A DNA stretch of 34,010 nt from contig JABCYQ010000029.1 in assembly GCA_013290125.1 (NCBI GenBank), positions 1 to 34,010 of the forward strand. Reading direction: 5' to 3'. Of this stretch, positions 4,188 to 26,943 are shown piece after piece. The DNA is from Vulcanimicrobiota bacterium (GTDB taxonomy: Bacteria; Vulcanimicrobiota; Vulcanimicrobiia; Eremiobacterales; Eremiobacteraceae). Both the position numbers and the translations under genes were made by a program. How positions within the stretch are numbered: position 1 is the stretch's first letter; every line of letters starts with the position of its first letter. The notes beneath the pieces were generated by a model that was not told the origin of the DNA, did not search any database, and was given only the letters and a program-made list of their open reading frames with translations.

Positions 4188-4230
4188 TAAGGTCCGCCCG
4201 ACATCGCTTGGCGGACCGTAAGGTCCGCCC
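4188..4230. repeat. Palindromic repeat cluster GGTCCGCC/GGCGGACC
   Basis: Two direct copies of TAAGGTCCGCCC (4188-4199 and 4219-4230) flank an inverted copy GGCGGACC (4210-4217). The first copy and the inverted copy form an 8-bp perfect stem with an 11-base loop, and the inverted copy can instead pair with the second copy. It lies in the 77-base gap between convergent genes. It may act as a weak bidirectional terminator or be a REP-like repeat. No T-run follows on either strand. Confidence 0.6.
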
Positions 4231-7100: not shown

Positions 7101-8831
7101 TTAGGTGCTAGTCTCCGCCGGTTCGAGCGCCTGCGTGCGATACAGACGCGCGTATAAGCCGTCGTGCGCGATGAGTTCGGTATGCGTGCCGCGCTCGACG
7201 ACGCGGCCGTCGTCAATCACGAGGATCAGCGTAGCGCGCCGGATCGTGGATAGGCGGTGCGCGATGATGAACGTGGTGCGGCCCACTAACAGGCGGTCGA
7301 GTGCATCGTTGATGAGCGCTTCGGATTGCGCGTCCAGCGACGAGGTAGCCTCATCAAGGATGAGGATGCGCGGCTTGCGCAGGATGGCGCGCGCGATCGC
7401 GATCCGCTGGCGTTCGCCGCCCGACAGCCGGATGCCGCGCGCGCCTACAAGCGTCAGGTAGCCGTTCGGGAAGCGTGAGATGAACTCGTCTGCGTTTGCC
7501 TGCGCCGCCGCGTCGCGCACTTCTTCAGGGGTTGCGTCGAGCCGTCCGTAGCGCACGTTGTCGGCGATGGTCCCCGAGAACAGCTGCGGATCCTGCGGTA
7601 CGATCGCGATCGCGCCGCGCAGCGTGCCGAGCGTCGCCGATCGGATATCGCGCCCGTCTATCGTCACCGTCCCCTGCGACGGCAGATAAAAGCGGGGAAG
7701 CAAGTTGACGATCGTCGTTTTGCCCGATCCGGAGGGCCCGACCAGGGCGACGACGTCGCCGGGCGCGATCGACGCGGTCACTCCTTTGAGGACATTGTTG
7801 ACGCCGTCGTACGAGAAATGGACATCGCTGAATTCGACGGCGCCGCGGATGTCTTTGATCGGACTTGCGCCAGGCGCATCGCTCGCTTCGACGGGCAGAT
7901 CGAGGATTTCGAATGCGCGCTTGGCGCCGATATACGCTTTGTTCAGATCGCCGACGTAATTCGAGATCTGGCTGACTGGATTTCCCGAGACCATCGCAAG
8001 TGTGAAGAACGCCGCCCATTCCTGCATCGAGAGCCGTCCGATGACGACTTCGTAGAACGAGTAGCCTGCAAGTATCGCTAGGCCGAGGCTGACGATGACG
8101 TCTACGACCGGGGTCTGCGTCAGCGCGATCTGCGACATCTTCAGCGATGCGCCGAGATAGGCGTCGTTGCTGTTCGTAAAGCGCGCGTACTCGTGTTCTT
8201 CGCGGCCGAACGCCTTGATGACGCGCATCGAGTCGATCGACTCCACGAAGACCGCGTTGACATCCGCGACGCGAGCGAGAGATGTTCCGGTGACGCCGCG
8301 CAGCACGGCCGAGAAACGCGAAACCGCATACGAAACGAACGGCGAAACTACCATCAAAACGAGCAGGAGCCGCCAGTTCACGACGCTCATCGCGATGATC
8401 GAACCCACGAGCGTCAGTATCGCGCCGATGAACTGCGGAGACGACATCACGCCCTGGACCATGATGTTCACGTCGTTGGAAAAACGAGATAGGAGCTCGC
8501 CGCCGCGCCAGCGGTCGAAGACATTCAGCGGCAGGTATTCGATACGCCGGAACAGCTCGGAACGGATGCGCGCGACTATCTGCTGTCCCGTGGCGGCGAT
8601 GGTGTACGAACCCGCGTATGTCGCGGCGTTCTTGATAACGTTAAGGATGGCAAAGGCGAGCAGCGTTTCGAAAAGCAGGTTAAGGCTCTTGCTTTGGACG
8701 GACGAAACGAGCGATTCGGCCACTTTGAAATAGGCGATGGTCGCAGCCGAGCCGAGGGCCGTGCATGCCAATCCGAGCGCGATCCGCCAAACGTGCGGCC
8801 GCGCGTAATTCAGCAGTCGCCTATAGACCAT
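7101..8831 (-). CDS. ABC exporter, MsbA-like (fused membrane and ATPase domains)
   Basis: This is a 576-aa half-transporter. An N-terminal type-1 exporter membrane domain (about six helices, residues 15-310) is followed by one ATPase domain with Walker A GPSGSGKTT (about 363-371), the Q-loop region IVPQDPQLFSG, signature LSGGERQRIAIARAIL (about 467), Walker B ILILDEATSSLD (about 487) and H-loop IIAHRLSTIRRA. The length and layout match MsbA and lipid-linked oligosaccharide flippases. ATG 8831 begins at the first amphipathic helix; the longer open frame to 8969 is rejected because it runs through the divergent intergenic region. A sulfotransferase follows in the same unit. The likely cargo is a lipid-linked glycan, but multidrug export cannot be excluded. 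Confidence 0.9.
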   Translation of the reverse strand: MVYRRLLNYARPHVWRIALGLACTALGSAATIAYFKVAESLVSSVQSKSLNLLFETLLAFAILNVIKNAATYAGSYTIAATGQQIVARIRSELFRRIEYLPLNVFDRWRGGELLSRFSNDVNIMVQGVMSSPQFIGAILTLVGSIIAMSVVNWRLLLVLMVVSPFVSYAVSRFSAVLRGVTGTSLARVADVNAVFVESIDSMRVIKAFGREEHEYARFTNSNDAYLGASLKMSQIALTQTPVVDVIVSLGLAILAGYSFYEVVIGRLSMQEWAAFFTLAMVSGNPVSQISNYVGDLNKAYIGAKRAFEILDLPVEASDAPGASPIKDIRGAVEFSDVHFSYDGVNNVLKGVTASIAPGDVVALVGPSGSGKTTIVNLLPRFYLPSQGTVTIDGRDIRSATLGTLRGAIAIVPQDPQLFSGTIADNVRYGRLDATPEEVRDAAAQANADEFISRFPNGYLTLVGARGIRLSGGERQRIAIARAILRKPRILILDEATSSLDAQSEALINDALDRLLVGRTTFIIAHRLSTIRRATLILVIDDGRVVERGTHTELIAHDGLYARLYRTQALEPAETST

Positions 8832-8986
8832 GTGTGTCCGGCCTGTTTGGCCGAGCGGCGTGGGAATCCCCCAACTGCGCACGCGCCGCGGCGGTGAAAC
8901 AAACCTCAAACGCTCAGGTACATCAGAGCGGATGGACCCTTGGAAAACCACGGAGATGGGATTCCACACGTCATCGGAGGCGCCAC
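8832..8986. other. Divergent intergenic region
   Basis: This 155-base region separates the ABC exporter (minus) from the zinc-finger membrane protein (plus). Short hairpins are visible near the exporter side: CGGCC/GGCCG with loop TGTTT near 8838-8852, and TGGG/CCCA around 8870-8884. No clear -10/-35 pairs were found. Confidence 0.3.
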
Positions 8987-9580
8987 ATGAGCTGCTACTA
9001 TCATCCTGCCGTTCCGACCGCGCTCACCTGCCGCGATTGCGGTCGCGAGATCTGTTCGCACTGCTCGGTCGATGCTGTTTGCCCCGGCTGCCGGCTTGGC
9101 CGGGCGATCAACGCGCATGCCCCTGAGCGGCCCCGTTTGTCCGGAGCGGCGAACGGCGGTCCCCGAACTGTCGGCCCAGAGACCGCAACTGCCGCGCCCC
9201 CGCCGAGTCAGCCGCGGGCCTCTGCGAACGTGAGCACGATCGAGCCGGCGCCGTCTTCTGAAGACCGCCTGCTTGCGGCGCTCTGCTACCCGCTGTGGCC
9301 GCTCGCGCTTCTCATGCTCTTCATCCGCTCGCATCGCAACGCTTTCGTGCGCTATCACATCGTGCAGGCGTTGGGCGTGAACGCGCTCGGCGTGCTCGTC
9401 TATCTCGCGTACAGCTACAGCGTCAATCTGCCGCTCGTGGGATGGCAGAGCGCGCTCTTCATGCCGTTTATGGTACCTGCATGGTTCTTCGTGGATCTGT
9501 ATCTCGCGGTCCGTACGTTCGGCGGTCATACACCGCGCGTGCCGATCGCAGCCGACTACGCGGAGAAATACGCGGCGTAG
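8987..9580 (+). CDS. B-box-type zinc finger fused to DUF4870-like membrane domain
   Basis: This is a 197-aa protein. Residues 3-40 are a cysteine/histidine cluster (CYYHP, CRDCG, CSHCS, CPGC) of the B-box zinc-binding type. A Pro/Ala-rich linker runs to about residue 85. The C-terminal part resembles DUF4870: an ALCYPLWPLALLMLFIR helix, RYHIVQALGVNALGVLVYL and a last hydrophobic segment MVPAWFFVDLYLAVRTF, giving about three membrane helices. ATG 8987 has GGAGG 6 bases upstream. The role of such fusions is unknown. Its stop lies 23 bases before the composite repeat. Confidence 0.75.
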   Translation: MSCYYHPAVPTALTCRDCGREICSHCSVDAVCPGCRLGRAINAHAPERPRLSGAANGGPRTVGPETATAAPPPSQPRASANVSTIEPAPSSEDRLLAALCYPLWPLALLMLFIRSHRNAFVRYHIVQALGVNALGVLVYLAYSYSVNLPLVGWQSALFMPFMVPAWFFVDLYLAVRTFGGHTPRVPIAADYAEKYAA

Positions 9581-9603: not shown

Positions 9604-9812
9604 TGAAGGGGCCGACTTTATGTCGGCCCTCATTTTAATCGCCCGCGGCATCACCGGCGATGTCGTCAGACGGGGCGTCTGAGGCGGCGAAAGCCGCCGA
9701 AGTCGAGCGGCGGATGTTGGTCATCCCGTTGATCCGCCGCGTCCCCGGCGCAGACATCGCCGATGATGCAGAGCGCAACGAAATGAGGGCCGACATAAAG
9801 TCGGCCCCTTCA
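9604..9812. repeat. 209-bp composite inverted-repeat element with multi-stem interior
   Basis: Perfect 32-bp arms (9604-9635 and 9781-9812, inverted) enclose 145 bases. Each arm is itself a hairpin: GGGCCGAC, loop TTTAT, GTCGGCCC. The interior carries further nested stems: 9648-9664 with 9753-9769 (16 of 17 pairs); TCAGACG 9666-9672 with 9676-9682 (loop GGG); GGCGGC 9683-9688 with 9693-9698 (GAAA tetraloop); GCGGCGGAT 9707-9715 with 9732-9740. About two thirds of all bases can pair. The photolyase stop codon is the first TGA of the right arm read on the minus strand. It sits between convergent genes. It could be a REPIN-like or MITE-like element, a bidirectional terminator, a structured RNA, or more than one of these. 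Confidence 0.85.
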
Positions 9813-11210
9813 TCCGCGGTGCGCTTTGTAGCGCGCCAAGAACGCGCGCGCTGCCGTCGCGTGATCGACCATCTGCTTCGCGTAGTGGTCGGGCGTGAAG
9901 AATCCGAACTCGATCTGGTGGCTGCGATCGACGCTCCATGGCGCGAGCGCCGCTGATGTCGGCAGTTTGGCGAGCTCCGGAACGTAGCGGCGGATGTAGA
10001 CCGCTTGGGCGTCGAAGTAGCGCGCTTGTTTCACCGGATTGTAGATCCGTGGATACGATGCTTGATCGGAGCCGCTGCCGGCGATGCGCTGCCAGTTTCC
10101 GTCGCACTGCGCCTCGTCGGCCTCAAGTAGTTGATCCATCCAAAGATCGCGGCCCGTACGCCAGTCTCCGCCGAGATCGATGCAAAAGAACGAAGCCGCG
10201 CAAATCGCCGCGCGCTGATGGACGTGTCCTTCCGCGCGCAGTTGGCGCATCGCCGCATCGACCAGAGGGTAGCCGGTATTACCGGAGGCGAAACGCTGCA
10301 GCGTCTCGTCGGAAACGGCGGACGCAAAGCCGCGCATCTTGGGCTGCTGCTCAAGGTCGTGGAGCGACGGATCGAAGTAGCCGAGCTGGATGAAGAAGTC
10401 GCGCAACGCCAATCGGCGGATCACGGTCTGCATCGAATGGCGCTCTTCTACCAGCGTCCACGAACGCGACATCTTCTCGGCCAGCGCGCCGTAGATCTGA
10501 CGCGGACTGATACAGCCGAAACGAAGCGACGCGGCGAGGCGCGACGTTCCCCCGCGCCCCGGATATTCGGCGTTGGTCCGATAGTCGCCGGCAGACGCGG
10601 TGATGAAATGCGTGAGCCGATCCGCGGCCCACGCTTCGCCGGGACCGGCGACGCCGAACGCGCCCCCGAAATCAGGCAGCGGACCGTCCTCATCGTCGCG
10701 TCCGTTCGGCGGCGATTCCGGTCCAGGGGGATCGGCCGGGATCTCGCGCCACACATCGTAGAACGCGGGAAAGACGAGGTAACCATCGCCGGGCGCCTGC
10801 TTTTTTTCGGCAACGACTTCGGGTTCGTGCACGCAATCCGCGCGACCGGTGTGCAGTTCGATGTCATCTCGTGCAAGCACCGCTGCAACCTCGGCTTCTT
10901 GCTCGCGCTCCAGTCGGCTGTAGCCGCGCGCGCAGTAGACGGCGCGCGCTCCAAGCCGTCGCGCCGCAGCAGCGATCGCTTCGCCGGCCGGTCCGTCGCA
11001 GAGCGTCAACGAAGCGTCGCGTTTCGCGAGATCCGCCCGCATCTTTTTGAGGCAACCGCAGGCGAACGCACGCTGTCGGATGTTCAGCGCGCCGAAGTCC
11101 GCGCTCGCGAAGACTCCGTATGTCGTCTGTGCTGCGGCGCGCGCGGCGGAAAGCGCGGGGTTGTCGCGCAGACGCAGATCGCGACGGAACCAATAGAGAT
11201 TGACTGTCAC
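9810..11210 (-). CDS. phrB: Deoxyribodipyrimidine photolyase / cryptochrome family
   Basis: This is a 466-aa flavoprotein of the photolyase family, which repairs UV-induced pyrimidine dimers using blue light. The N-terminal antenna domain begins VNLYWFRRDLRLRDNPAL. The FAD-binding helical domain carries GRGGTSRLAASLRFGCISP, TGYPLVDAAMRQL, HQRAAICAASFFCIDLGGDWR, the conserved GNWQRIAGSGSDQA and PRIYNPVKQA. The length suits class I CPD photolyase; distinguishing CPD from (6-4) or cryptochrome activity needs phylogeny. The GTG start at 11210 has a GGAA 5 bases upstream. It lies downstream of a strong terminator, so it has its own promoter. Its TGA stop falls within the 32-bp repeat arm. Confidence 0.92.
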   Translation of the reverse strand: MTVNLYWFRRDLRLRDNPALSAARAAAQTTYGVFASADFGALNIRQRAFACGCLKKMRADLAKRDASLTLCDGPAGEAIAAAARRLGARAVYCARGYSRLEREQEAEVAAVLARDDIELHTGRADCVHEPEVVAEKKQAPGDGYLVFPAFYDVWREIPADPPGPESPPNGRDDEDGPLPDFGGAFGVAGPGEAWAADRLTHFITASAGDYRTNAEYPGRGGTSRLAASLRFGCISPRQIYGALAEKMSRSWTLVEERHSMQTVIRRLALRDFFIQLGYFDPSLHDLEQQPKMRGFASAVSDETLQRFASGNTGYPLVDAAMRQLRAEGHVHQRAAICAASFFCIDLGGDWRTGRDLWMDQLLEADEAQCDGNWQRIAGSGSDQASYPRIYNPVKQARYFDAQAVYIRRYVPELAKLPTSAALAPWSVDRSHQIEFGFFTPDHYAKQMVDHATAARAFLARYKAHRG

Positions 11211-26832: not shown

Positions 26833-26943
26833 AAGGCCGATTTTGCTGAAGGGGCCGATTTGCTGAAGGGGCCGATTTTATATCGGCCCACGATATGTTC
26901 GCTCGGGCCGACATAAAGTCGGCCCCTTCAGGCTACCCCTTCA
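26830..26943. repeat. Compact copy of the TGAAGGGGCCGA inverted-repeat family
   Basis: Three tandem half-units begin with TGAA: 26830-26846, 26847-26863 and 26864-26889. The last is an arm of a 26-bp inverted repeat whose other arm is 26905-26930, separated by 15 bases; 24 of 26 positions match. The right arm is identical over 26 bp to the arm at 9787-9812. Another partial arm end, CCCCTTCA, lies at 26936-26943. The first unit's TGA is the stop codon of the Mo-hydroxylase large subunit. It lies between convergent genes. Confidence 0.85.

Follow-up and report, generated by a model that had tools for sequence, protein, structure and literature searches.

A 209-base palindromic unit from an uncultivated Eremiobacterota combines a REPIN-type frame with a second repeat family

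Two kinds of described repeats come closest to the element analyzed here. REPINs are extragenic inverted pairs of an abundant REP palindrome set a few bases apart, and copies of that REP flank their cognate REP-associated tyrosine transposase (RAYT, or TnpA_REP; Bertels and Rainey 2011, PMC3116915). Rickettsia palindromic elements (RPEs, around 150 bp) and CGTC-tagged REPs make up the second kind (Di Nocera et al. 2013, PMC3733652; PMC10969869). Cases of REPs and RPEs inserted into DNA-repair genes have been described, and the termini of GTAG REPs are a known source of stop codons (PMC3733652). REPs, REPINs, and palindromes inside genes are usually studied separately. Here, they are nested in one lineage, with a record that can be read genome by genome.

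The window, i.e., the whole stretch of 34,010 nt that we analyzed, is contig C29 of the 2.9-Mb genome of an uncultivated member of the Eremiobacterota (hereafter G000). It carries a 209-base unit in the spacer between two convergent genes (3'-3'), one of which encodes a DNA photolyase (Table 1). Among named genomes, the matches of this photolyase are restricted to Eremiobacterota records and one unidentified bacterium, at 50-58% identity. Known kinds of repeats are combined in a new way in the 209-base structure, which is very unlikely to be a new RNA gene. Our preferred reading, to which we give a probability of about 0.6, is that the unit is a composite mobile palindrome: a REPIN-type frame, presumably mobilized by a RAYT, around a passenger palindrome that we call A.

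The geometry of the unit agrees largely with the first-pass annotation of this DNA. The two 32-nt arms are perfect inverses separated by 145 nt, each containing an 8-bp hairpin (GGGCCGAC-TTTAT-GTCGGCCC), and the interior is closed by the 17-bp helix with a C-A mismatch that had been described. This helix, P1, is a genus-specific terminal inverted repeat of A. The folds computed for the two strands also lie far below those of 200 dinucleotide shuffles (-145.5 kcal/mol, z -13.7 for the + strand; -148.5 kcal/mol, z -14.6 for the - strand). As for the smaller interior hairpins, the one with the GAAA loop is confirmed, while the one with a GGG loop (CAGAC-GGG-GTCTG) is real but private to the window copy and not a trait of the family: it arises because this copy has GACGGGG where nearly all others have GCCGGGG. 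Elsewhere, the family pairs GCCGGGG with CCCCGGC instead. The CCCGA motif in the loop of P4 is kept in most copies of A.

Table 1. Coordinates of the unit, its neighbors, and the genes with in-frame copies (window positions unless a locus is given)
Feature	Location	Strand	Remark
Convergent left neighbor gene	8765..9580	+	No Pfam match
Left REP arm	9604..9635	+	TGAAG foot, palindrome 9609-9629, inward T-rich tail, terminator-like
Interior A module	9638..9772	+	138-bit match to the covariance model; G000 has 28 copies
Helix P1 (outer), 5' strand	9648..9664	+	Pairs with 9753-9769, one C-A mismatch
Helix P2, 5' strand	9669..9675	+	Family GCCGGGG, here GACGGGG with one mismatch; partner 9743-9749
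Helix P3 with GAAA loop	9683..9698	+	
Helix P4	9707..9740	+	9707-9714 with 9733-9740; CCCGA motif in loop
Helix P2, 3' strand, CCCCGGC	9743..9749	+	
Helix P1, 3' strand	9753..9769	+	
Right REP arm	9781..9812	-	Perfect inverse of left arm, palindrome 9787-9807, terminator-like on - strand
TGA, outer end of right arm	9810..9812	-	Stop codon of photolyase gene
DNA photolyase gene, convergent right neighbor	9810..11210	-	PF03441, PF00875
Plain REPIN with the same arms	26864..26930	.	15-nt spacer; between two other convergent genes of the window
imuB-like gene with in-frame palindromic insert, three species	L025 321-2336, L064 750-2939, L046 334-2316		
mfd of G005	L243 2-2539	minus	In-frame A between UvrB-interaction and RID domains
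MurF + F420-ligase domain (G005, G012)	L035 2-2314, L037 738-3032		One continuous ORF, A at the junction

The arms are REPs. Their palindrome has 426 exact matches in G000, 203 in one congener, and 14 in another; the reversed control pattern has none in G000 and 0-1 across the genomes compared. We found a single Y1-transposase gene in G000 (L048, contig C26). It encodes a RAYT of 170 aa that passes the NCBIfam REP_Tyr_transpos equivalog NF047646 with 91.8 bits (cut-off of 80 bits), and it is bracketed by arm REPs, four in tandem on one side and three inverted on the other. Plain REPINs with identical arms are common in the genome (TGAAGGGGCCGAC..GTCGGCCC-spacer-GGGCCGAC..GTCGGCCCCTTCA), with about 15 nt between the palindromes. 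These observations support the first-pass suggestion of a REPIN- or MITE-like element. They also dispose of the idea of a local accident, given the multiple copies in G000 of both parts (about 28 interiors and 426 arm palindromes). In the relatives, the RAYT gene is likewise flanked by its own REPs, with different sequences: GTAG-GGCGGACC in the sister species G001, GGGCAAGC in G002, and GCGGTCGAG in G004 and G011. The cognate palindromes number 233 in G001, 464 in G004, and 292 in G011. One copy of the GGCGGACC REP of the sister species, which has 32 copies in G000 as compared with the 233 of G001, occurs in the window at 4210-4229.

In a 756-kb sample of G000, annotated with a home-made gene caller, arms are present in 43 of the 103 convergent spacers, as against 25 of the 337 codirectional and 4 of the 115 divergent ones, at a median position of 26 nt past the stop codon. 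A terminator scan flagged both arms of the unit, facing inward (2 found versus 0.6 expected), and at convergent gene ends the arms resemble inward-facing terminators. One could regard the unit as mainly a bidirectional terminator, or a 3'-end stabilizer, that selection both places and keeps between convergent genes, whatever its origin. The preference for convergent spacers just downstream of stops is consistent with this, as is the photolyase spacer, in which G000, G001, G002, G004, and G011 each carry their own REP. However, arm orientation is unbiased in codirectional spacers (15 same versus 12 opposite), the long T run is missing in many arms, and the interior would not be needed for such a role. 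We consider this explanation unlikely as the main one, even if it is compatible with a composite mobile palindrome.

The interior belongs to a second repeat family. Using a covariance model built from 46 copies, we identified 28 copies of A in G000 and 2-14 in eight relatives. A is present in 9 of 14 genomes of the taxonomic family to which G000 belongs, and the same model found none in the 103 other genomes of the class that it was run on. The first-pass annotation had asked whether the interior is a conserved fold, and compensatory change is indeed strong: 22 of the 28 pairs of the four-helix structure show two-sided changes, a value reached by none of 500 shuffles (mean 8.1), with 8-15 such pairs in slid controls. 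Of the 46 aligned copies, 42 have GAGA or GAAA as the P3 loop. Hence, the fold of A is maintained, in a repeat family of its own, although these results do not show that this happens at the RNA level.

The other first-pass proposal, that of a structured RNA, deserves to be weighed on this point, since covariation across genera and a GNRA-type loop are what a small RNA or a cis-element would display, and the extended outer helix P1 has a mild strand bias (34 GU versus 17 AC departures). However, the core helices have none (18 GU versus 23 AC). Template switching in quasi-palindromes is an alternative source of compensatory change. No Rfam family reached its gathering score, and the best candidate, MIR918, obtained 54 bits where 268 are needed; we attribute this hit to a hairpin that is long and perfectly paired, and treat it as an artefact. 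Furthermore, A is absent from orthologous sites, including that of the unit itself in the sister species, sometimes inverted, and open in frame inside genes. The unbiased core helices, the Rfam results, and the polymorphic occupancy make a conserved RNA gene very unlikely.

The diversity of the family can be described as follows. Many copies in genus g1 have a further palindrome of 127 nt, B, on their 5' side, often preceded by a truncated inverted A (as judged by eye), and the copies of genera g3 and g4 often occur as divergent pairs. Of the two strands of module B (L049-L078), the GA-rich one has the more stable fold (-63 versus -50.7 kcal/mol), in which G-A mismatches separate many GC steps. 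Five copies of A (L006, L011, L018, L019, L021) have in common a small replacement beside P3, from TCTGAGGCGGCGA to TCGAAAGGCGA or similar, and possibly form a subfamily. The tree of A is star-like and poorly resolved. Therefore, amplification of the unit as a whole is not demonstrated, and we did not retain the short and long forms of A as separate lineages. We also rejected membership of A in the CGTC-tagged REP superfamily, as CGTC precedes P3 in most g1 copies and is replaced in many of those of g3 and g4. Spread by phages or plasmids was rejected as well, with no match in IMG/VR (exact pattern), PLSDB, or INPHARED.

Copies of A in G000 tend to lie beside REPs, and at a near-constant spacing. 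Among the 29 A loci, 14 are framed by a pair of inward-facing REPs, and 12 have such a REP on a single side (two of these 12 being doubtful by eye). A right-hand REP is present at 19 loci, not counting the doubtful pair, with a gap of 29.5 +/- 2.9 nt; by comparison, 5% of the positions drawn at random from convergent spacers have an inward REP 10-60 nt to the right. Each arm beside A retains its inward T-rich tail. The association extends to other genomes: a cognate REP occurs on at least one side at 6 of the 10 A sites examined in G004 (on both sides at two), and beside A at 4 of 8 sites in G011 (on both sides at one). In G006, a different REP provides hairpins on both sides at 2 of 2 sites. 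Across three genera, the inward-facing REPs that frame or adjoin A are unrelated to one another in sequence. In the g4 genomes, REP adjacency was seen at 1 of 11 A sites, and no Y1 transposase was found in those that carry A. Nor did we find A in the ten RAYT loci examined. The g4 genomes and these loci weaken the case for RAYT as the sole mobilizer of A; since A is found inside genes with no REPs beside it, and in g4 genomes in which no Y1 gene was found, RAYT cannot be its only route.

The comparison with the sister species G001, whose proteins are 92% identical to those of G000, reveals a turnover of both components. The orthologous photolyase spacer of G001 contains neither the REPs of G000 nor A, but has a hairpin linked to its own RAYT, and G002, G004, and G011 each have their own REP there. 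Several species thus have a RAYT-linked REP of their own, and each of these REPs recolonizes the same convergent spacer. We compared 16 further loci of G000 and G001. A is absent in G001 at L003, L007, L008, L014, L016, L027, and L029; the A and/or B part is inverted between the species at the shared sites L005, L006, L009, L023, and L025; and the orientation is the same in both at L012 and L021. At L012, A is common to the two species and the REPs occur only in G000, while at L016 the REP is common and A occurs only in G000. These two loci show that the A and REP families have partly separate histories and that the unit may assemble stepwise. The evidence for mobility consists of presence and absence between species; we found neither target-site duplications nor joined excision products.

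In another explanation, A would be mobile in its own right and would insert preferentially within or next to REP hairpins, in the manner of some insertion sequences. The frame of REPs would then be a landing site and not a vehicle, and some other enzyme would move A. A single property of A would in this case account for its adjacency to three unrelated REP families, and the persistence of A in g4 genomes without a Y1 transposase, as well as the state of L016, fit such independence. On the other hand, simple insertion into a single REPIN spacer of 15 nt would not leave each arm with an inward T-rich tail of its own, A is also found in genes without REPs, and no candidate enzyme was identified. 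We regard independent targeting as rather improbable, though somewhat less so than the terminator explanation.

Copies of A also persist inside genes, in open frames. In G000, G001, and G002, the imuB-like gene of Y-family polymerase (PF00817) holds sequence of A, of B, or of both, which nowhere closes the reading frame and has opposite orientations in G000 and G001. The ImuB-like protein of G004 is continuous across the insertion point and lacks the insert. Two further cases, in mfd and in an ORF joining MurF to an F420-ligase domain, come from G005 and G012 (Table 1). In genus g4, the imuB-like gene (L275, L277; G005, G012) seems to carry another kind of insertion, about 150 nt long and at a more downstream position, which the model did not report as A.

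Returning to the composite mobile palindrome, the frame would be two inward-facing REPs arranged as in a REPIN. The RAYT of G000 probably recognizes their hairpins and may move REP-A-REP as one single-stranded unit. The interior would belong to a second palindromic family, which is older and non-autonomous, is preserved as DNA that folds, and occurs between REPs, at the ends of genes, and in frame within them, much like RPEs. In the species of G000, the unit would have landed or accumulated in the 3'-3' spacer, where the right arm supplies the photolyase stop codon and both inward, terminator-like arms may terminate transcription. More tentatively, A could be a transposase-less palindrome tied to RAYT/REP systems, a cargo between REPs adopted independently by unrelated REP families in several genera and tolerating inversion as well as in-frame insertion either way; we see this broader scenario as possible, not as probable. 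A second structured palindrome recurs next to unrelated REPs and persists within repair genes without closing their frames. With a nested record in one lineage and defined sequences, the question of whether REP transposases can carry cargo becomes directly testable.

Each ingredient of the unit is of a known kind, and, as the first-pass annotation had stated of the exact layout, no named family searched matched it. In the literature searched, we found neither this combination, nor its recurrence with unrelated REPs, nor the Eremiobacterota A family, which is not proof of absence. The unit resembles REPINs (PMC3116915) in its extragenic position, its inverted pair of a short, high-copy palindrome, and its cognate RAYT flanked by the same REPs. 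It differs from them in its spacer, which is not a few bases forming one hairpin but a 145-nt member of another family, and we therefore call the unit REPIN-framed, not a plain REPIN. Its foot in G000 is also TGAAG and not the GTAG tag, which is found in the RAYT-linked REPs of two relatives, G001 and G002. A itself is closer to RPEs and CGTC-tagged REPs (PMC3733652; PMC10969869): it is a multicopy palindromic repeat of about 100-150 nt, has no dedicated transposase, and lies both in intergenic regions and in frame in genes, including DNA-repair genes and one gene whose homologue (in G004) lacks the insert. The likeness is in behavior only, as A has another phylum and sequence, a branched fold, a GNRA-type loop, and a CGTC tag that is not conserved across genera. 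Insertion sequences that enter REPs, such as ISPpu9 (PMC8450116), are also REP-associated second elements, but A measures about 135 nt and encodes no transposase. Finally, repeat families inserted in one another are known from the BOX/RUP/SPRITE clusters of pneumococci (PMC10969869), and REP dimers lie within other palindromes in GTAG-15 of Anabaena variabilis and CGTC-1 of H. neapolitanus (PMC3733652). There, however, the REPs are inside, whereas in the present unit they form the outer part, and such nesting is seen in three genera with REPs that are unrelated.
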